DNA from: a virus
Length of the DNA: 35,095 nucleotides
Virus record (IMG/VR): IMGVR_UViG_3300044591_000078
Location: 1 to 35,095 of that record
Strand: one strand, 5' to 3'
Below are positions 1-35,095 of the stretch, in pieces. The notes beneath the pieces are model-generated. The model did not search any database. It was not told where the DNA came from and saw only the letters and a list, made by a program, of their open reading frames with translations. The translations under genes and the position numbers were made by a program. Within the stretch, counting starts at the first letter, position 1. Each line of letters starts with the position of its first letter.

Positions 1-228
1 ATCGTGGACCGCATTGAAGTTATTGAAAATGGCTCAGTACAAGTTCGCACAAAGACTGCTATCTTGGAAGATGGCAAGCAAATTAGCAGCTCATTCCATC
101 GTCATGTAATTTCCCCTGGTGCTGATTACAGTGGCGAAAATGCAAAAGTACAGGCTATATGTGCATCAGTTCACACTGCTGAAGTGATCGCAGCATACGA
201 AGCAGCCATCGCTGCACAAGGAGTCTGA
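1..228 (+). CDS. Small conserved phage protein, 5' end cut by window start
   Basis: The reading frame is open from the first base and ends at 228. Comparison with the complete copy at 34591-34839 shows that the first seven codons are missing, so the full protein would be 82 residues. The two copies differ at only two residues (Ser to Ala and Ala to Val) plus silent changes. The sequence is a short, soluble, mixed alpha/beta protein without membrane segment, cysteine cluster or recognisable motif. It lies between the tailspike and the lysis genes once the circle is closed, so a small virion or late protein is plausible. I do not recognise a function. Confidence 0.75.
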   Translation: MVDRIEVIENGSVQVRTKTAILEDGKQISSSFHRHVISPGADYSGENAKVQAICASVHTAEVIAAYEAAIAAQGV

Positions 229-484
229 CATGTCGACCAATTCGCAAATCGCATTTACCCCACTTGGTAAGACCATTGCAGTAGCAGCAGCTGGAACTGC
301 ACCCACTGGTGTGCAGGCTCCCGTATACGAGAAGTTCAACCCTCAGAACGCAGGCCAGTACCGTTTCATCAACAACGGCACAACCACCGTGTTCTTGGGC
401 ACTGGCCCAACTGCTGCACTAGCTCAAGCCGCTGCCGTTGCTCCAGTTGCTGGAACGCCTTCAGACGCTATCGTGCTGGTGCCT
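1..484. repeat. Left copy of near-identical terminal direct repeat
   Basis: These bases align without any gap to 34612-35095. Identity is exact over 1-111 and again over 383-484. Between these, differences are few up to about 230 and then frequent and mostly synonymous up to 382. The gap-free, codon-aware pattern shows two diverged alleles or paralogues rather than sequencing errors. Exact blocks of about 100 bases at both window ends are what a k-mer assembler leaves when it closes a circular genome through a strain-variable locus. A true tandem duplication is the alternative. Confidence 0.9.
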
Positions 485-583
485 GGTGCTGTTGAAATCC
501 TGCGCTTTAACATTGACACCTTCTTCAGCGGCTTGTCCAGCTCGTCCGCCACCGTCTACATCACACCAGGCCAAGGCCTCTAA
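230..583 (+). CDS. Small beta-rich, probably structural phage protein
   Basis: This encodes 117 residues. The start is supported by an AAGGAG at 217-222 inside the end of the preceding gene. The protein is rich in Ala, Val, Thr and Gly, has alternating hydrophobic residues and no charged clusters, and resembles the small beta-sandwich proteins at 25800 and 26146 in style. Such proteins often decorate phage capsids or tails, but this is inference. A second copy with a diverged first half begins at 34841 and runs off the window. The last 102 bases of that partial copy are identical to this gene, which makes this a variable locus with a conserved 3' part. Confidence 0.75.
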   Translation: MSTNSQIAFTPLGKTIAVAAAGTAPTGVQAPVYEKFNPQNAGQYRFINNGTTTVFLGTGPTAALAQAAAVAPVAGTPSDAIVLVPGAVEILRFNIDTFFSGLSSSSATVYITPGQGL

Positions 584-5737: not shown

Positions 5738-7323
5738 TCCCAGCTCCTTTTCATTACCCTAAAAAACTTTCCGTCCTTGCGATACTCAATCCATTCTGGT
5801 GGCGTGGCCATGTTCATGTTCTGCACCATGTCCTCCAGCGTTTTCACATTCAGACCACCAGGCACAATGCTGGCGCTGTTGGCAATACTCAGCAGCTGAC
5901 TCATTGCACGCTGGCCTGCATAACCTTCATGCATGATTGGCAAATACTCGGTGATCGGTGTGTCGCTTAGGCCACCGTAGTAGGTCACGGCCAGCATCTC
6001 AATGCCAGAGGCCTTGCTGATGTGCTTGCGCCATGTCCAGCTTGTAACCTCCAGCTCTTGACCATCCAGACCCATAATGTCGTCATTGCGCAACACCATC
6101 GATTTTTTTACTGGCTCAGGAAACTGCTCACCGCATGAAGGGCAAAGCATCACCGAGATGTGCACCAGCTCACCACAGTGATCGCACACCTTAACTGGTG
6201 CCTCGCCATTGCCATCGCCACCCTTCTTAGGCGGCTGCACATTGGTGATCGGACCATGCGACTCGACCACACCGGCAAAGTCGAGCACCAAACAATGATC
6301 GGTGTGCGACTTCACGCGCATACCACGGCCTGCCATTTGCACATACAAACTGGCGCTCATGGTCGGGCGCAGCATCACTACCAGATCAATGTCTGGATAG
6401 TCAAAACCAGTGGTCAGCACATTGGCATTGGTAAGGGCACGCACACGGCCAGCCTTGAAGTCAGCCAGCATGCGCTCGCGCTCTTTCTTTGGTGTATCGC
6501 CAGTCACGCACTCAGCGGTCACACCCTGCTGGCGCAGGACTTCAGCCACACGCTCGGCATGCTTCACGCCAGCACAGAAAAACAGCCACGCCTTGCGCTC
6601 ACCAGCCAAGCCCATGACCTCATGCACCACGGCCTGATTCTTGTCGTCAGTATCCACAGCGGCCTGCAACTCTGACTCAATGAACTCGCCACCGCGCTTC
6701 TTCACGCCACTCACATCCAGCTTGGCCTTGGTGACCTTGGAGCGCAGCGTGGCCAAATAGCCCTTGAACACCAGCTCCTCGATGCTGACAGGCGTGAGCA
6801 GATCGTCAAACAGCGCAGGCTTATCGGTGATCAGGCCATGCCCCAAGCGGTAAGGCGTGGCGGTCAGGCCAATCACACGCAGGTGCGGATTGATGGCCTT
6901 CAACTCGCCAAGCAACTTACGATAGCCACCCTCGTCCTTGTGGTTGACCAAGTGGCACTCATCGATGATCACCAGATCGATGTGGCCAAGCTCACGCGCC
7001 TTGGTGCGCACAGACTGGATGCCAGCAAAGGTGATTGGCTCGCTCAAGTCTTTCTGGCCAATGCTGGCGCTGTAGATGCCCATCGGTGCACCAGGCCAAT
7101 GCTGGCGCATCTTCTCGGCATTCTGCTCAATCAACTCCTTCACATGGGTCAGCATGAGCACCCGAGTCTCTGGCCAATTTTGCAAGGCATCCTTGCACAG
7201 CGCAGCCACGATGTGAGACTTGCCTGAGCCGGTCGGCAGCACCAGACAAGGATTGCCATCATTGCCAGCCTCAAACCATCTGTACAGCTCGTCGATGGTG
7301 CGCTGTTGGTAGTCACGAAGCAT
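5734..7323 (-). CDS. SF2 DNA helicase (DEAD/DEAH, RadD/SSL2-like) with zinc motif
   Basis: The protein has 529 residues. Superfamily 2 motifs are complete: LRDYQQ near the start (Q-like motif), Walker A LPTGSGKS at 29-36, DECH at 121-124, GLTATP at 152-157, a second RecA domain with TTGFDYPD at 304-311, and motif VI QMAGRGMR at 329-336. A four-cysteine zinc motif follows (Cys380, 383, 394, 397), and then about 130 residues of unassigned C-terminal domain. This matches phage helicases of the type III restriction-subunit/RadD class. The likely role is unwinding or remodelling branched DNA during replication or recombination. The ATG directly abuts the TGA of the nested ORF at 7324. Confidence 0.92.
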   Translation of the reverse strand: MLRDYQQRTIDELYRWFEAGNDGNPCLVLPTGSGKSHIVAALCKDALQNWPETRVLMLTHVKELIEQNAEKMRQHWPGAPMGIYSASIGQKDLSEPITFAGIQSVRTKARELGHIDLVIIDECHLVNHKDEGGYRKLLGELKAINPHLRVIGLTATPYRLGHGLITDKPALFDDLLTPVSIEELVFKGYLATLRSKVTKAKLDVSGVKKRGGEFIESELQAAVDTDDKNQAVVHEVMGLAGERKAWLFFCAGVKHAERVAEVLRQQGVTAECVTGDTPKKERERMLADFKAGRVRALTNANVLTTGFDYPDIDLVVMLRPTMSASLYVQMAGRGMRVKSHTDHCLVLDFAGVVESHGPITNVQPPKKGGDGNGEAPVKVCDHCGELVHISVMLCPSCGEQFPEPVKKSMVLRNDDIMGLDGQELEVTSWTWRKHISKASGIEMLAVTYYGGLSDTPITEYLPIMHEGYAGQRAMSQLLSIANSASIVPGGLNVKTLEDMVQNMNMATPPEWIEYRKDGKFFRVMKRSWE

Positions 7324-8236
7324 TCAAGATTCTCCATGCTGTTGCTGCACAGAGAGGGACTTGTCCATTTCCAATGGCTTTAAGTCTGTCCATCCTAGCG
7401 GCCACCCCATTAGCCACTCGACCCACGTTGGGTTCAGTTGACCACTGTTCTGGTCTACCGATTGACTCAACATAATTTGTTTTCCCTTGGCTACTCTTCG
7501 CTGAATAGATGGGTTGCTCATGTTTCCTCGATCTCTGTTGTCCGATGCCTGGGGAGTTGGAAACATTTTTTCCTTGGTTATGTATCCTATTGGTGGCCCT
7601 GTTCCCGACCATTCCACTTGTTCCGATAGGCATCCCGCACCCACTCCATTGCGTCCTATTTTCTTGCGGTAATCCAATCTCTTTTCCATCGATTCTGCTG
7701 ATCGAGTTGGTATATCTACCGTACTTGGAGTTAGCCACAATCCAGATTCTTTCTCGTTTATGGTTTGCACCAACGTCGGCAGCAGATATAACTCCCCACC
7801 TACTGTCATACCCCATTGCGGTAAGGTCTGCAAGGACTCGTTCAAGTCCCCTAGAAGTGAGCATTGGACTGTTCTCCACGAATGCGTATCTTGGTCGAAC
7901 CTCGCCAATAATCCGTGCCATTTCTCGCCACATTCCGCTACGTTCTCCGTTGATTCCTGCGCCTTTTCCTGCTGCGCTAATGTCTTGGCATGGAAAGCCT
8001 CCAGATACAACGTCAACAATTCCTCGCCACGGATTTCCATCAAAGGTTTGTACGTCATCCCAAATTGGGAAAGTCGGGAGAAGACCATCATTTTGTCTGG
8101 CGCACAATACGCTTGCTGGGTACGGTTCCCATTCGACTGCACAGACTGTTCTCCATCCGAGAAGTTTCCCGCCAAGTATTCCTCCACCAGCGCCTGCGAA
8201 TAAAGCCAGCTCATTTAATTCTCCTTGTTTGTTCAT
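7313..8236 (-). CDS. C5-cytosine DNA methyltransferase (first frame of a nested pair)
   Basis: The protein has 307 residues. C5-methyltransferase motifs are in order: FAGAGGG at 13-19 (cofactor binding), GGFPCQD with catalytic Cys83, ENS at 121-123 (motif VI), RERIWIVA at 161-168 (motif VIII), a variable target-recognition region at about 170-265, and RMDRLKAIGNGQVP at 281-294 (motifs IX-X). It transfers a methyl group from S-adenosylmethionine to cytosine. The ATG at 8236 has AGAGG upstream; a stronger AAGGAG just after it fits the ATG of the other frame at 8214. The gene overlaps the helicase gene by 11 bases. No matching restriction enzyme is seen, so self-protection of phage DNA is likely. 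Confidence 0.93.
   Translation of the reverse strand: MNKQGELNELALFAGAGGGILGGKLLGWRTVCAVEWEPYPASVLCARQNDGLLPTFPIWDDVQTFDGNPWRGIVDVVSGGFPCQDISAAGKGAGINGERSGMWREMARIIGEVRPRYAFVENSPMLTSRGLERVLADLTAMGYDSRWGVISAADVGANHKRERIWIVANSKYGRYTNSISRIDGKEIGLPQENRTQWSGCGMPIGTSGMVGNRATNRIHNQGKNVSNSPGIGQQRSRKHEQPIYSAKSSQGKTNYVESIGRPEQWSTEPNVGRVANGVAARMDRLKAIGNGQVPLCAATAWRILNAS
7324..8214 (-). CDS. Nested ORF in another frame of the methyltransferase gene; phage protein with LNPTWVEWLMG-type C-terminus
   Basis: This ORF lies wholly inside the methyltransferase gene, on the same strand in a different frame, and encodes 296 residues. Its ATG has AAGGAG six bases upstream, and its TGA directly touches the helicase ATG. 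Family-like features are FHAKT at 74-78, RFDQDTHSWRT at 105-115, LPQWGM at 131-136, a TP-rich middle, and NPTWVEWLMGWPLGWTDL at 261-278. I recall proteins of this layout in phages, next to cytosine methyltransferase genes, without a known function. Residues 1-58 overlie the most constrained methyltransferase motifs and may be passive; an internal ATG at 8040 is an alternative start. The protein is unproven but unlikely to be a chance ORF. Confidence 0.65.
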   Translation of the reverse strand: MSWLYSQALVEEYLAGNFSDGEQSVQSNGNRTQQAYCAPDKMMVFSRLSQFGMTYKPLMEIRGEELLTLYLEAFHAKTLAQQEKAQESTENVAECGEKWHGLLARFDQDTHSWRTVQCSLLGDLNESLQTLPQWGMTVGGELYLLPTLVQTINEKESGLWLTPSTVDIPTRSAESMEKRLDYRKKIGRNGVGAGCLSEQVEWSGTGPPIGYITKEKMFPTPQASDNRDRGNMSNPSIQRRVAKGKQIMLSQSVDQNSGQLNPTWVEWLMGWPLGWTDLKPLEMDKSLSVQQQHGES

Positions 8237-8276
8237 CTCATAAACCTCTAATAAAAGTATTTACGCATCTCATAAA
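8234..8276. repeat. 11-base direct repeats flanking the methyltransferase junction
   Basis: The same 11 bases (catctcataaa on the plus strand) occur at 8234-8244 and 8266-8276. One copy contains the ATG of the 307-residue methyltransferase and the other spans the stop of the 353-residue one. The 32-base spacing could be a scar of insertion or recombination that joined the two genes. A chance repeat in an A/T-rich spacer is also possible. Confidence 0.45.
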
Positions 8277-9331
8277 TTTTTAAGCCATTGCTCATAAACT
8301 TTTAATGCGATCTGAGCTGTCATAACTGGTGGAACACTCATTCCAATCATGTAATGTGGTTTTTGTTTGCAAAAGTCATAGTCCTGTGGATAACTTCCAA
8401 TGCTGCAAGCCTCTTGTTTGCTTGTGAACTTTGGTGCATCAAACAAAACAAGACTATCTTCATGCGATGTGAGCGTTGTGGCCACTTTGTCTTTGTAGAG
8501 ATAGCTCTGGCTAAAATATTTGGTTTTACCTGTAAGCCTCTCGCAAGCCTCAAGCATTGCCTTATCGCCATCTTGTCTAGCTTGCCAAATGGTTGTCATG
8601 TTTTCGCTAAGGTTGCGTCCTTCGCAATCTTGAATTTCTCCAAACACAATGGGTTTTTCATTGAATTCAAGTCTTAACTTTGGAACCATCGTGAACATGT
8701 CCATAGATTCCAAGAATGGTTCTGCTAAGTCTTTGCGTAAAGCGACAAAGAAAACACGCTCTCTACGTTGTGGAACACCCATAGTTGAACCATCAAGCAA
8801 CCAATGCTGAACAATGTAGCCGGCCTCATCAAATGCCTCATAAATGCGTGAAACGTAAGCTCTAGCCTCACCTAACAATAAACCTTTGACGTTTTCGGCA
8901 ATTACAACCTTGGGTTGTAGTTTTTTAGCCAAATCAATGAAGTCAAAGAAAAGCGTATCCAAAACCTGTTCGGCTTGTCCTTCACGAAACTTCTTCTCTT
9001 TTCCCCAATCATCCCCACGATTTCCGGCCATTGAGAAACTTGAACAAGGTGGCGAACCATCCAAAATGTCTAACTCATAAAGTTCCTGTGGCAAGTCATC
9101 ACGCAATTTGAATTCTTGGATTGGCTCCAAATAAGCGTATTTTGGGTTGTGGTTAGCTTTGTAAGCCTCAATCATTTTTGGATCAATTTCATTGCATCCA
9201 AGTACATCAAAGCCAGCCAATTTGTAGCCCATTGTTGAGCCACCACCACAAGCAAAACATGAGAACACCTTGCCTTTATCTTTTGTGAAATTGGCTTGTG
9301 CCAAAGTCCACTTGTATGGAAATTTGTTCAT
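8270..9331 (-). CDS. Second C5-cytosine DNA methyltransferase
   Basis: The protein has 353 residues. Motifs in order are a cofactor-binding FACGGGSTMGYKLAGF (26-41), catalytic PCSSF with Cys96, ENV at 146-148, VPQRRERVFF at 186-195, a target-recognition region of about 120 residues, and a C-terminal M-S-V-P-P-V motif. It differs strongly from the 307-residue enzyme, so the two probably methylate different sites. Base composition is visibly more A/T-rich than its neighbours, with many AAA, TTT and AAT codons, which suggests a separate origin. It overlaps the nuclease gene upstream by four bases. A role in evading host restriction is likely. Confidence 0.93.
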   Translation of the reverse strand: MNKFPYKWTLAQANFTKDKGKVFSCFACGGGSTMGYKLAGFDVLGCNEIDPKMIEAYKANHNPKYAYLEPIQEFKLRDDLPQELYELDILDGSPPCSSFSMAGNRGDDWGKEKKFREGQAEQVLDTLFFDFIDLAKKLQPKVVIAENVKGLLLGEARAYVSRIYEAFDEAGYIVQHWLLDGSTMGVPQRRERVFFVALRKDLAEPFLESMDMFTMVPKLRLEFNEKPIVFGEIQDCEGRNLSENMTTIWQARQDGDKAMLEACERLTGKTKYFSQSYLYKDKVATTLTSHEDSLVLFDAPKFTSKQEACSIGSYPQDYDFCKQKPHYMIGMSVPPVMTAQIALKVYEQWLKNL

Positions 9332-14485: not shown

Positions 14486-14668
14486 ATGAACAACAAACGT
14501 GAAACTCCAAATTTTTTAAGCTGGCAACATGACACACTGGCCAAGTTTGCAACTGAGGTCTACATCAGACTTCAAGATGAGCAAGCCGCAAACGAGCAAC
14601 TCAGGATGGATTTAAAAGATGCCATGAAACTGGCGCGAATCGAAAACATGAAGGACAATGCAGCATGA
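14486..14668 (+). CDS. 60-residue small phage protein
   Basis: The ATG has an AAGGTGAG ribosome site. The product is polar and helical, with an amphipathic heptad-like run at about 33-55 (ANEQLRMDLKDAMKLARIEN), and probably forms a short coiled coil. It overlaps the small terminase gene by four bases and so is likely to be translated with it. I do not recognise a function. Confidence 0.6.
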   Translation: MNNKRETPNFLSWQHDTLAKFATEVYIRLQDEQAANEQLRMDLKDAMKLARIENMKDNAA

Positions 14669-15117
14669 CCACAAAATCACACAAAGCAAAAGCGCCAACC
14701 AAGCGAACTAAGCCTGGCAGTGAAGACCGAGCCGTGATCAGCCAGATGGTGCTTGATGGCATGCGAAACGGCTTGAGCGCTTTCAAAGCATGTCAAGCAG
14801 CTGGTGTTCCTCAAAGCACTTTTTCACGGTGGGTGGATGATGATGCTACCCTTGCGGAGAATTACGCGCGCGCGAGGGAAGACCTGATCGAACGCATGGC
14901 CACAGAGATCATGGAGATCAGCGATCAAGATGTTGGCGTGGCCGTTGATGGCAAAAAAGACTGGGCGGCAGTACAAAAGCACAGGCTTCAAGTTGACACA
15001 CGAAAATGGCTGTTGTCCAAGATGGCTCCAAAGAAGTTTGGCGACAAGATCGAAGTTTCTGGCGATCCTGCCAATCCCCTGGTGCAAAGAATTGAGCGCG
15101 TGGTCGTCAAGGCATGA
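14665..15117 (+). CDS. terS: Terminase small subunit
   Basis: The protein has 150 residues. The N-terminus is basic (Lys/Arg-rich to residue 20). Residues 24-55 hold a helix-turn-helix with A-F-K-A-C-Q-A-A-G-V-P-Q-S-T-F-S-R-W, typical of small terminases that recognise the packaging site. The C-terminal part carries R-L-Q-V-D-T-R-K-W-L-L-S-K-M, a conserved block in this family. It binds phage DNA as a ring and hands it to the large subunit. It overlaps both neighbours by four bases, and the large subunit follows directly. Confidence 0.88.
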   Translation: MTTKSHKAKAPTKRTKPGSEDRAVISQMVLDGMRNGLSAFKACQAAGVPQSTFSRWVDDDATLAENYARAREDLIERMATEIMEISDQDVGVAVDGKKDWAAVQKHRLQVDTRKWLLSKMAPKKFGDKIEVSGDPANPLVQRIERVVVKA

Positions 15118-16337
15118 CAGTTTTACAGCTTCCAACCCCTGAGTGGGCAGTTCCACTGCTGGAGCCAAGCCGATACAAAGGCGCTTGGGGTGGCCGAGGC
15201 TCTGGCAAGTCCCACATGTTTGCCGAGCTGATGATCGAGGCTCACATCATGGACCAGAAGCGCAGAAGCGTCTGCGTGCGTGAAATCCAGAAGTCGCTCA
15301 ACCAATCGGTCAAGCGCTTGCTAGAAACTAAGATCGAGCAAATGAACGCTGGCGCATACTTCGAGGTGCAAGAAGCCGTGATCAAGTCCCGCAAGGGCGA
15401 TGGCATGATCATCTTCCAAGGCATGCAAAACCACACAGCCGACTCCATAAAATCGCTCGAAGGTTACGACTGCGCTTGGGTGGAGGAGGCTCAAAGCCTG
15501 AGCCAGACCAGCCTCGACCTGCTGCGGCCAACCATCCGCAAGCCAGACTCCGAGCTGTGGTTTACATGGAACCCGCGCCAGCAAAACGACCCAGTCGACT
15601 TCCTGCTGCGCGGTCCGACACCACCAAAAGACGCGCAAGTTCTGAAGGTCAACTTCACCGACAACCCTTGGTTTCCACAAGTCCTGCGCGACGAGATGGA
15701 GTACGACAAGAGGCGCGACCCAGACAAATACCAGCATGTCTGGATGGGAAGCTACCTCACAAACAGCAACACTAGGGTGTTCAAAAACTGGCGCGTCGAG
15801 GACTTCGAGGCACCACCAGACGCAATTCACCGGCTTGGTGCTGACTGGGGCTTTGCGGTCGACCCGACCACGCTGGTGCGCTGCCACATCATTGGCCGCA
15901 CGCTCTACATCGACTACGAGGCCTACATGGTCGGCTGCGAGATCGTGAACACTCCAGAACTGTTCATGCAGGTGCCAGAGGCCGAGAAGTGGCCAATCGT
16001 GGCCGACTCAGCAAGGCCAGAGACGATCAGCCACATGAAAAAGAATGGCTTTCCAAAGATCATGACAGCGGTCAAAGGTCCGAAGTCGGTCGAGGAAGGC
16101 ATCGAGTTCCTGAAGAATTACGACATCGTGGTGCACCCTCGATGCATCCACACCATTGACGAGCTGACGCTGTACAGTTACAAGCAAGACCCACTGACCG
16201 GCAAAATCTTGCCGGTACTCGAAGACAAGAAAAACCACGTGATCGATGCCCTGCGTTACGCCTGCGAAGGTGTGAGACGATCGGCCATCACAAAGCCTGC
16301 AACATTCACTCCATTGCCAAATGTAAAGAAATGGTGA
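15114..16337 (+). CDS. terL: Terminase large subunit
   Basis: The protein has 407 residues. The ATPase domain has Walker A GGRGSGKS at 26-33 and Walker B with CAWVEEA at about 120-126, and a coupling motif with WFTWNP near 148-153. The nuclease domain starts at about 240 with GADWG (Asp243), followed by VADSARPE and D-A-L-R-Y near the end, giving the acidic residues of an RNase H-like site. The length and motif order fit the short PBSX-like Terminase_3/6 class. It drives DNA into the procapsid and cuts it. Confidence 0.95.
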   Translation: MTVLQLPTPEWAVPLLEPSRYKGAWGGRGSGKSHMFAELMIEAHIMDQKRRSVCVREIQKSLNQSVKRLLETKIEQMNAGAYFEVQEAVIKSRKGDGMIIFQGMQNHTADSIKSLEGYDCAWVEEAQSLSQTSLDLLRPTIRKPDSELWFTWNPRQQNDPVDFLLRGPTPPKDAQVLKVNFTDNPWFPQVLRDEMEYDKRRDPDKYQHVWMGSYLTNSNTRVFKNWRVEDFEAPPDAIHRLGADWGFAVDPTTLVRCHIIGRTLYIDYEAYMVGCEIVNTPELFMQVPEAEKWPIVADSARPETISHMKKNGFPKIMTAVKGPKSVEEGIEFLKNYDIVVHPRCIHTIDELTLYSYKQDPLTGKILPVLEDKKNHVIDALRYACEGVRRSAITKPATFTPLPNVKKW

Positions 16338-19416: not shown

Positions 19417-20688
19417 ATGGCCAATAGCTTTTCCAAAGAAGAACGCGTAGCGTTTGAAGACATCCTCGAAGGTTTCCAAGACTTGCTGGTCTTGTCGCGT
19501 CACGTTAGCGTGTACAACACAAACCAGACCGAAATGGCTCGTACCAACGACACCATCTGGCGTCCCATGCCTTACATCGCTCAGTCGATCAACAGCACTC
19601 CTGGCACGACCATCGCTGGTTCTTACCAAAACATGACTCAGTTGTCTGTGCCATCTACCATTGGCTTCAGCAAGACTGTGCCTTGGACAATGACCACTCT
19701 TGACTTGCGTGATGCATTGCAAGAAGGTCGTCTGGGTGAGTCTGCCAAGCAGAAGCTCGCATCCGACATCAACGTTGCAATCATGAACACCGCAGCTGCT
19801 CAAGGCACTTTGGTCGTTCCAGTTGCTGGCGCTTCTGGTGACTATGATGACATCGCTCTGTGCGACAGCATCATGAACGAGCAAGGCGTGCCTGACTATG
19901 ATCGCTTCTTGGGCTTGTCCAGCCGCGACTACAACGGTCTGGCAGGTAACTTGTCTCAGGCCAGCCGTTCATTCGGTAACATGAAGTCTGACAAAGCATA
20001 CGAGCGCAACTACGTTGGCCCTGTTGCTGGTTTCGAGACATACAAGTTCGACTATGCAAACCGCATTGCTGTGGCCGCTGGTGGTACTACCACAATCGAT
20101 ACACAGAACTCTGCCAACAACTACCTCGTGCCTCAGGCAACATCGACATCTGTCGGTGGCCAGATCAACGTTGACAACCGCTATCAGACCGTCACAGTGT
20201 CCAACACTGTTGGCGTGGCTGTTGGCGATGCCTTCACGATCGATGGCGTGGTTGCAGTGCATCACATCACCAAGCAGTCCACTGGTCAGTTGAAGACATT
20301 CCGTGTCATCAGCATCACCAACGGCACACAAATGGTGATCAGCCCTGGCATCATCTCCAACCAAGTGGCAAGCGATGCATCTGCACAGTACAAAAACTGT
20401 ACAGTGACTCCATCTGCTTCTGCCAACATCAACTGGCTCAACACTGGTGCTTCTAACATCAACGTGTTCTGGCAGCGTGATTCCTTGGAAATCTTGCCTG
20501 GCCGCTACGCAGTCCCATCCGATGCTGGCACCGCAGTGATGCGTGCTACCACCGATCAGGGTGTGGAGTTGGTGATGCAGAAGTTCTATGACATCGACAC
20601 CATGACAATCAAGTATCGCTTGGACACACTGTTTGGTGTTGTCAACAAGCAGCCTGAAATGTCTGGTATCTTGTTGTTCAACCAGTAA
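19417..20688 (+). CDS. Major capsid protein, P22 coat (HK97 fold) type
   Basis: The protein has 423 residues, against 430 for P22 coat. P22-type marks include a helical N-terminus (F-E-D-I-L-E-G-F-Q-D), R-T-N-D-T-I-W-R-P-M-P-Y, a V-P-W-T-M segment near 90 and the ending M-S-G-I-L-L-F-N-Q. A Thr/Val-rich inserted region (about 200-320) fits the extra Ig-like insertion domain of P22-type coats. AGGAG lies nine bases before the ATG. A strong hairpin follows the gene and may help set its high expression. Confidence 0.93.
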   Translation: MANSFSKEERVAFEDILEGFQDLLVLSRHVSVYNTNQTEMARTNDTIWRPMPYIAQSINSTPGTTIAGSYQNMTQLSVPSTIGFSKTVPWTMTTLDLRDALQEGRLGESAKQKLASDINVAIMNTAAAQGTLVVPVAGASGDYDDIALCDSIMNEQGVPDYDRFLGLSSRDYNGLAGNLSQASRSFGNMKSDKAYERNYVGPVAGFETYKFDYANRIAVAAGGTTTIDTQNSANNYLVPQATSTSVGGQINVDNRYQTVTVSNTVGVAVGDAFTIDGVVAVHHITKQSTGQLKTFRVISITNGTQMVISPGIISNQVASDASAQYKNCTVTPSASANINWLNTGASNINVFWQRDSLEILPGRYAVPSDAGTAVMRATTDQGVELVMQKFYDIDTMTIKYRLDTLFGVVNKQPEMSGILLFNQ

Positions 20689-25393: not shown

Positions 25394-25815
25394 TGGCAAC
25401 CGCACCACAATCACGCAGACTCAATCTGACGCGAGACCAGCTCGCAACGTTCCTGACTGATCAGCAACAGATCAGGCAGTTCGAGTTGCTTTTTTCTACC
25501 GTGGATGAATTGCAAGTTATCACAGGAACTGACTTTGAGTATCAGGCAGACACGGCAGCAGCTACCGCAAATGAGGCACTGGCACAGATCAATTCGCTGG
25601 CGCAGGCCACCGCAGTCGATGATGCTGTTCTGAACGCCAAAGTTCAGCAGGCCTTAGATGCCATTCCTCGATTGACGCAAGCACTTGACTTGCTTGCATT
25701 GGCTCCTGTGCGTAACAATATCGAACTGGCGCACGATGTGAATGGCATCTTGCCACTTGCTAACTTACCCGCATCACTGCGATCTAATCAGGTGCTCACA
25801 TGGCTTTCGATGTAA
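25393..25815 (+). CDS. Tail-associated protein of unknown function
   Basis: The protein has 140 residues. The N-terminal part contains R-L-N-L-T-R-D-Q-L-A-T-F-L-T-D-Q-Q-Q-I-R-Q-F-E-L-L-F and then E-L-Q-V-I-T-G-T. The middle (about 50-80) is an Ala-rich, heptad-like helix that could form a trimeric coiled coil. It follows the gp10-like gene and overlaps the next gene by 16 bases. The layout could suit a short neck or needle-like component, but I cannot confirm this. Confidence 0.65.
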   Translation: MATAPQSRRLNLTRDQLATFLTDQQQIRQFELLFSTVDELQVITGTDFEYQADTAAATANEALAQINSLAQATAVDDAVLNAKVQQALDAIPRLTQALDLLALAPVRNNIELAHDVNGILPLANLPASLRSNQVLTWLSM

Positions 25816-26135
25816 TTACACCCGCAAAACTTGGCCAAGCGGCCATCACCACTGGCGTGACTACGCTGTACACCGTACCAGCCAGCACTCGCACGCTTCT
25901 CAAAGAATTCAGCATTGCCAACACCACGGCAGCGGCCATTAATGTGCGTGTGTTTTTGGTGCCATCAGCAGGTTCGGCAGGCACTGGAAACGCCTTCTTG
26001 TACGATGTGCCAGTACCAGGCAACAATACTCTGCAATATAACGGCATCGAAGTGCTGAATGCAGGAGACACCATCCAAATTCAAGCTGCATCCGCAGGCC
26101 TAACCATCATCGCCAGCGGTGGCGAAGCCACATAA
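25800..26135 (+). CDS. Small beta-sandwich structural protein, paralogue of 26146 gene
   Basis: The protein has 111 residues of regular beta pattern (T-L-Y-T-V-P-A-S-T-R-T-L-L-K-E-F-S-I-A-N-T-T, and I-Q-A-A-S-A-G-L-T-I-I-A-S-G). It starts within the end of the previous gene. The sequence order of strands and the G-L-T-I-x-A-S-G ending recur in the next gene, which suggests duplication. Such domains occur in phage decoration or adaptor proteins. Confidence 0.7.
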   Translation: MAFDVITPAKLGQAAITTGVTTLYTVPASTRTLLKEFSIANTTAAAINVRVFLVPSAGSAGTGNAFLYDVPVPGNNTLQYNGIEVLNAGDTIQIQAASAGLTIIASGGEAT

Positions 26136-26145
26136 GGAGAATGAA

Positions 26146-26481
26146 ATGACCGTATCAATCAAGGTTTTAATCCCACCAAAGCAGGCCGAGAATGCTCAGA
26201 CCACGCAGTACACAGCAGTGAACTGCAAGGCCATCATTGACAAATTTACAGCCACCAACACCACATCAGGCAATGTGACGATGAGCGTCAACTTGGTGAC
26301 AAGTGGTGGCGCAGCTGGCGTAACCAACTTAATCGTGGACACGCGCAGCATTGCACCCGATGAAACCTACACATTCCCAGAGCTGGTTGGCCAGGCGCTG
26401 GAATCAGGCAGCTTCATCAGCACGATTGCAAGCGCAGCCACATCACTAACCATCCGCGCATCTGGCCGCGAAATCACTTAA
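26146..26481 (+). CDS. Small beta-sandwich structural protein, paralogue of 25800 gene
   Basis: The protein has 111 residues from the ATG at 26146, with AAGGAGA upstream; an in-frame ORF start at 26119 lies inside the previous gene. It has the same length and strand order as its neighbour (Q-Y-T-A-V-N-C-K-A-I-I-D-K-F-T-A-T-N-T-T and S-L-T-I-R-A-S-G-R), with low direct identity. Two adjacent copies suggest hetero-oligomers or copies at different symmetry positions. The function is unproven. Confidence 0.7.
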   Translation: MTVSIKVLIPPKQAENAQTTQYTAVNCKAIIDKFTATNTTSGNVTMSVNLVTSGGAAGVTNLIVDTRSIAPDETYTFPELVGQALESGSFISTIASAATSLTIRASGREIT

Positions 26482-34542: not shown

Positions 34543-34590
34543 CCGTACCAGTTCGGACAACTGGATTCTTGATTTTGATTGGAGATCGAA

Positions 34591-34839
34591 ATGGCTTTAG
34601 AAAAACAAATTATCGTGGACCGCATTGAAGTTATTGAAAATGGCTCAGTACAAGTTCGCACAAAGACTGCTATCTTGGAAGATGGCAAGCAAATTAGCAG
34701 CTCATTCCATCGTCATGTAATTGCCCCTGGTGCTGATTACAGTGGCGAAAATGCAAAAGTACAGGCTATCTGTGTATCAGTTCACACTGCTGAAGTGATC
34801 GCAGCATACGAAGCAGCCATTGCTGCACAAGGAGTCTGA
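34591..34839 (+). CDS. Small conserved phage protein, complete copy of the gene cut at position 1
   Basis: The protein has 82 residues. The ATG at 34591 has GGAG seven bases upstream; a TTG at 34579 is a weaker in-frame option. From codon 8 the gene aligns without gaps to 1-228, with two residue changes (Ala in place of Ser, Val in place of Ala) and a few silent ones. It is soluble, with no membrane segment. The function is unknown. It directly follows the tailspike and precedes the beta-rich gene, as at the left end. Confidence 0.78.
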   Translation: MALEKQIIVDRIEVIENGSVQVRTKTAILEDGKQISSSFHRHVIAPGADYSGENAKVQAICVSVHTAEVIAAYEAAIAAQGV

Positions 34840-35095
34840 CATGGCCGGTAATTCACAAATCGCATTTGCCCCACTTGGCAAGACCATCGTGGTGGCAGCA
34901 GCTGCATCTGCACCTGTTGGAATTCAAGCGCCTGTTTATGAGAAATTTAATCCTCAGAACGCAGGCCAATACCGATTCATCAACAATGGAACGACCACCG
35001 TGTTCTTGGGCACTGGCCCAACTGCTGCACTAGCTCAAGCCGCTGCCGTTGCTCCAGTTGCTGGAACGCCTTCAGACGCTATCGTGCTGGTGCCT
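34612..35095. repeat. Right copy of near-identical terminal direct repeat
   Basis: This is the partner of 1-484, gap-free over the whole length. The first 111 and last 102 bases are exact. The stretch between contains the changes that alter the start of the 117-residue protein. If the exact end block is an assembly overlap, the circular unit is about 34,611 bases. Confidence 0.9.
34841..35095 (+). CDS. Second allele or copy of the beta-rich protein, cut by window end
   Basis: The frame is open to the last base, giving 85 codons. The ribosome site AAGGAG in the end of the previous gene is the same as for the copy at 230. The first half differs at many positions (for example MAGNSQIAFAPLGKTIVV against MSTNSQIAFTPLGKTIAV), while the last 102 bases are identical. 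This mix of diverged and identical blocks suggests recombination between strains or an assembly through strain variants. Confidence 0.75.
   Translation, partial: MAGNSQIAFAPLGKTIVVAAAASAPVGIQAPVYEKFNPQNAGQYRFINNGTTTVFLGTGPTAALAQAAAVAPVAGTPSDAIVLVP

Follow-up and report, generated by a model that had tools for sequence, protein, structure and literature searches.

The two ends of the record and the phage that carries them

The window analysed here is the whole of the IMG/VR virus record IMGVR_UViG_3300044591_000078, 35,095 nucleotides in length. Both of its ends cut a gene, an 86-aa gene on the left and a 117-aa gene on the right. The features concerned are the following.

1..484, + strand: end overlap, left copy (allele A), gap-free alignment with 37 differences
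34612..35095, + strand: end overlap, right copy (allele B), gap-free alignment
233..382, + strand: divergent tract holding 33 of the 37 allele differences (21.6% over codons 1-51)
1..228, + strand: 86-aa gene, 5' end lost at the window start, phrog_6228 (no assigned function)
34579..34839, + strand: 86-aa gene, complete copy, phrog_6228 match
230..583, + strand: 117-aa gene, allele A, complete, without a named family
34841..35095, + strand: 117-aa gene, allele B, cut by the window end after 85 codons
32950..34542, + strand: tail spike-like gene, a variable module upstream of the locus
14665..16337, + strand: terminase small and large subunits
19417..20688, + strand: P22 coat protein family (PF11651, E 2e-85), which places the phage

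Bases 1-484 align with bases 34612-35095 without a gap and with 37 mismatches (92.4% identity), and the overlap thereby spans the record from its very first base to its very last. A self-search of the record found these two places and no others. The outer edges of the overlap consist of exact runs, 111 bases on the left and 102 on the right, and the differences between the two copies are confined to positions 112-382, with 33 of the 37 falling inside 233-382; none of 20,000 random scatterings placed 33 differences within any 150 bases. The third codon position holds 24 of the 37 differences. The initial annotation had read the window ends as two alleles of one locus that overlap inexactly, with exact outer blocks and clustered differences, and the 484-base alignment confirms this description. 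The class given to the record in IMG/VR is 'linear', a label that is to be expected if exact end repeats alone are counted.

The 117-aa gene matches IMG/VR at 310 places or more, and its product keeps at least 78% identity across 72 aligned relatives, with about 50 invariant positions. Allele B is readable for 85 codons, the last 32 codons lying beyond the window end. Searches of Pfam, PHROG and GenBank phages with the 117-aa protein gave no match and those of PDB sequences no credible one, and the structure model reaches a mean pLDDT of 47.7, too low for anything firm to come from the fold; the earlier description of the gene as structural is left unsupported by these results. The gene is located near the tail spike-like gene, of which most relatives match about the first 40 residues only, and a tail-related role of the 117-aa protein could be conceived from this neighbourhood.

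Elsewhere in the window, two small-protein genes lie side by side at 25800-26135 (111 aa) and 26119-26481 (120 aa). Their products are probably related to each other, as both match overlapping stretches in two related contigs (G023 and G027). The 117-aa protein was considered as a paralogue of this pair (25800-26481), and the comparison gave no support.

Judged by its gene content, the phage is a P22-like podovirus. The genome encodes the small and large terminase subunits (terS/terL), a P22-like portal, the P22 coat protein, a head-tail adaptor, a tail accessory factor, a phage stabilisation protein, DNA ejection and transfer proteins, a holin and an endolysin; the P22-like set of coat, portal, tail accessory factor and stabilisation protein is present through matches to PF11651, phrog_156, phrog_637, phrog_578 and PF11134. 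Coat, portal, tail accessory factor, stabilisation and ejection genes are common to this phage and to the P22-like podoviruses (Lederbergvirus and kin), from which it differs by its own small genes of 86 and 117 aa and by the distance of its nearest GenBank record. The latter, MW202867, is an uncultured circular genome of 34,522 bp with a similar gene order and 74% nucleotide identity over 99% of the terL-portal-scaffold query. The window minus one copy of the overlap measures 34,611 bp, which is close to the length of MW202867.

The locus and the contig ends in related records

In the 80 IMG/VR loci compared, the 117-aa gene is carried once in every case (80/80), and whole-record searches of 19 longer records (30.3-40.7 kb) gave one match each. 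The 86-aa and 117-aa genes adjoin wherever both are found, the commonest spacing being 5 bases by end coordinates.

The ends of 27 related IMG/VR contigs of 28.9-40.7 kb were also compared. Six of them have exact end overlaps (G001, 52 bp; G005, 79 bp; G011 and G014, 127 bp each; G016 and G027, 123 bp each). Four have gap-free but imperfect overlaps: G004 (127 bp, 95.3% identity), G009 (182 bp, 96.7%, at the holin-endolysin), G010 (2053 bp, 92.3%, at the portal/scaffold) and G026 (147 bp, 98.0%, at the portal). Gapped or partial overlaps are present in three more (G019, G021, where it lies at terL, and G022), and the overlap-free contigs reach a best-offset end identity of about 45% at most. 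Exact outer runs are kept in G010 (127 bp) and G026 (126 bp), and the differences in the G010 portal gene, like those of the window, favour the third codon position (123, against 22 at the first and 13 at the second). Since the overlaps lie in differing genes, the effect is general to the assembly of this population and not bound to the present locus. A special hotspot of closure at the locus was rejected, the relatives closing in other genes. In this sample (n=27), imperfect overlaps, of which four are gap-free and three gapped or partial, are about as frequent as the six exact ones.

These comparisons bear directly on the possibility of a true duplication, in which two diverged 86-aa/117-aa pairs would stand in tandem or flank a linear genome as imperfect terminal repeats. 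The record does hold two copies, and the 5' tracts of A and B have different nearest relatives, both of which speak for this possibility. However, a duplication typical of such phages should appear as two copies in the relatives, all of which have one, in the 19 longer records as in the 80 loci; both copies in the window are cut by the record ends and are in exact register with them; and comparable end overlaps occur at unrelated genes of related contigs. A duplication is consequently very improbable. A biological direct terminal repeat was likewise rejected, the two copies differing by 7.6% and the overlaps of the relatives ending in different genes.

Proposed closure of a circular genome through two alleles

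The reading we propose, to which we give a probability of about 0.94, is that the window represents one full turn of a circular P22-like genome, with a unit of about 34,611 bp, plus 484 further bases, the circle being closed through the alleles of different strains. The mixture of strains and the path followed by the assembler are what we infer here. The genome would be either circularly permuted or closed by way of a concatemer, and would be assembled as one walk round the circle. The sampled population would contain at least two strains, which have most of the genome in common and differ at this locus. The walk of the assembler would come in via allele A, pass once round the shared sequence and go out via allele B; it would halt where the alleles rejoin, thereby leaving about one k-mer of shared sequence at each end.

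A toy de Bruijn graph made of both alleles and a circle of random filler resolves into a single long unitig of shared sequence and a pair of allele unitigs with k-1 bases in common at each end, and a contig that ran through path A, then the shared part, then path B would resemble the window. With k=103, the allele paths measure 475 bases, versus the 484 bases observed. The outer exact blocks of 111 and 102 bases are near this k but unequal, whereas a two-allele bubble with a single k predicts equality; the 9-base excess would be explained by a third variant that precedes the first difference by 9 bases, or by end trimming. The closure of a circular genome at a strain-variable site had been suggested in the initial annotation, and the single copy of the locus, the imperfect overlaps of the relatives and the toy graph all come to its support.

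This reading joins two observations of the literature. According to the authors of CheckV, contigs assembled from a circular template break at a random place and carry a repeat of k-mer length (PMC8116208); on the other side, metagenome assemblers are known to break up strains or fuse them where the sequence is conserved (PMC11443906). As in the DTR contigs of CheckV (PMC8116208), the end repeat would result from the assembly of a circular or concatemer-derived genome, but here it is 484 bases long and imperfect (92.4% identical), and its two copies would come from the alleles of different strains. Because different alleles stand at the two ends, an exact test labels the record linear. As in the strain bubbles and inter-strain chimeras of de Bruijn assemblies (PMC11443906), shared sequence would force the joining of alleles; unlike an ordinary strain bubble, the present one would be situated at the closing point of the circle, which brings both alleles into one contig.

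The near-repeat would thus be a common by-product of metagenome assembly, an ordinary and already known phenomenon, and no special feature of this virus. For curation, it means that such contigs are complete circular genomes which exact-repeat tests label linear, and whose length the overlap inflates. Many complete circular phage genomes probably escape exact-repeat tests, and an end test tolerant of errors would recover a sizeable further share of them, as indicated by the four gap-free imperfect overlaps found besides the six exact ones among the 27 contigs. Furthermore, an imperfect end overlap offers a cheap view of the alleles that co-exist in one sample.

Origin of the divergent tract, and the methyltransferase genes

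Could the divergence of the two alleles reflect diversifying selection, or a built-in generator of diversity, acting on the N-terminus of a surface protein of the virion? The concentration of the differences in codons 1-51 is in favour of this explanation, and selection at the virion surface, together with a specially conserved second half of the gene, had been suggested in the initial annotation. The substitutions themselves argue against it, dN being far below dS both over the readable part of the 117-aa gene (0.059 against 0.422) and in its first 51 codons (0.097 against 1.19). Moreover, in a scan of 73 distinct sequences of the gene, from the window and its relatives, diversity is spread evenly from the start to the end of the gene at each of the three codon positions, without a step between the halves, and lies mostly at third positions; the second half varies in the relatives as much as the first. 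This evenness implies that the variable start and the conserved end are not properties of the 117-aa protein, and the 'conserved second half' reflects the identical DNA common to the two strains there. Nor does anything point to a virion location for the protein. Diversifying selection is therefore barely credible, and neither suggestion is supported.

On the other hand, the recombination also suggested in the initial annotation is supported by the sharp edges of the tract, by the differing nearest relatives of the alleles and by the distribution of the differences. In the 24 relatives with the same layout, the mean divergence is 0.371 at 112-229 versus 0.231 at 230-382; the A/B pair shows the reverse, with 4 differences in the former interval versus 33 in the latter. 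At the proportions of the relatives, the chance of finding 4 or fewer of the 37 differences in 112-229 is about 2e-8, a binomial value that assumes independent sites and serves as a rough guide. The nearest relatives of the 5' tracts are L003 and L004 in the case of A, and L046, L042 and L009 in the case of B. This 150-base tract between near-identical flanks would most likely result from homologous recombination between co-resident strains. A chimera of library amplification or of assembly, formed without any real recombinant strain, could also have produced the tract, which is known from one contig and whose joins at both ends fall by construction in sequence shared by the alleles. This origin, which would leave the circular closure unaffected, seems unlikely, since both alleles keep an intact reading frame, each resembles different relatives, and the L003/L011 pair has a similar step within the same gene, the differences falling from 30 over the first 195 bases to 2 over the last 156. 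An exact 24-mer of each allele gave no match in IMG/VR, in searches that may miss near-identical records.

Situated on the border of the variable tail module, the 86-aa/117-aa pair might be a frequent crossover point for the exchange of tail modules between co-resident phages, which would leave short mosaic tracts like 233-382. We regard this possibility as quite unlikely.

A separate observation concerns two different cytosine methyltransferase-like genes that adjoin on the - strand, at 7313-8236 and 8270-9331, and both match DNA methyltransferase PHROGs. The first is a C5-cytosine methyltransferase gene of 307 aa (PF00145, 7313-8236), and a second ORF, read in a different frame and 296 aa long (phrog_1008, 7324-8214, - strand), lies almost wholly within it. 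The two ORFs look like a conserved dual-coding gene pair, of which a literature search found no account. Indeed, the second frame is open in the same register, over 247-298 codons, in Acinetobacter phage ABMM1, Salmonella phage S9-5 and Microcystis phage Mel-JY01, and in these three phages the identity amounts to 33-42% for the second frame and 47-52% for the methyltransferase frame.
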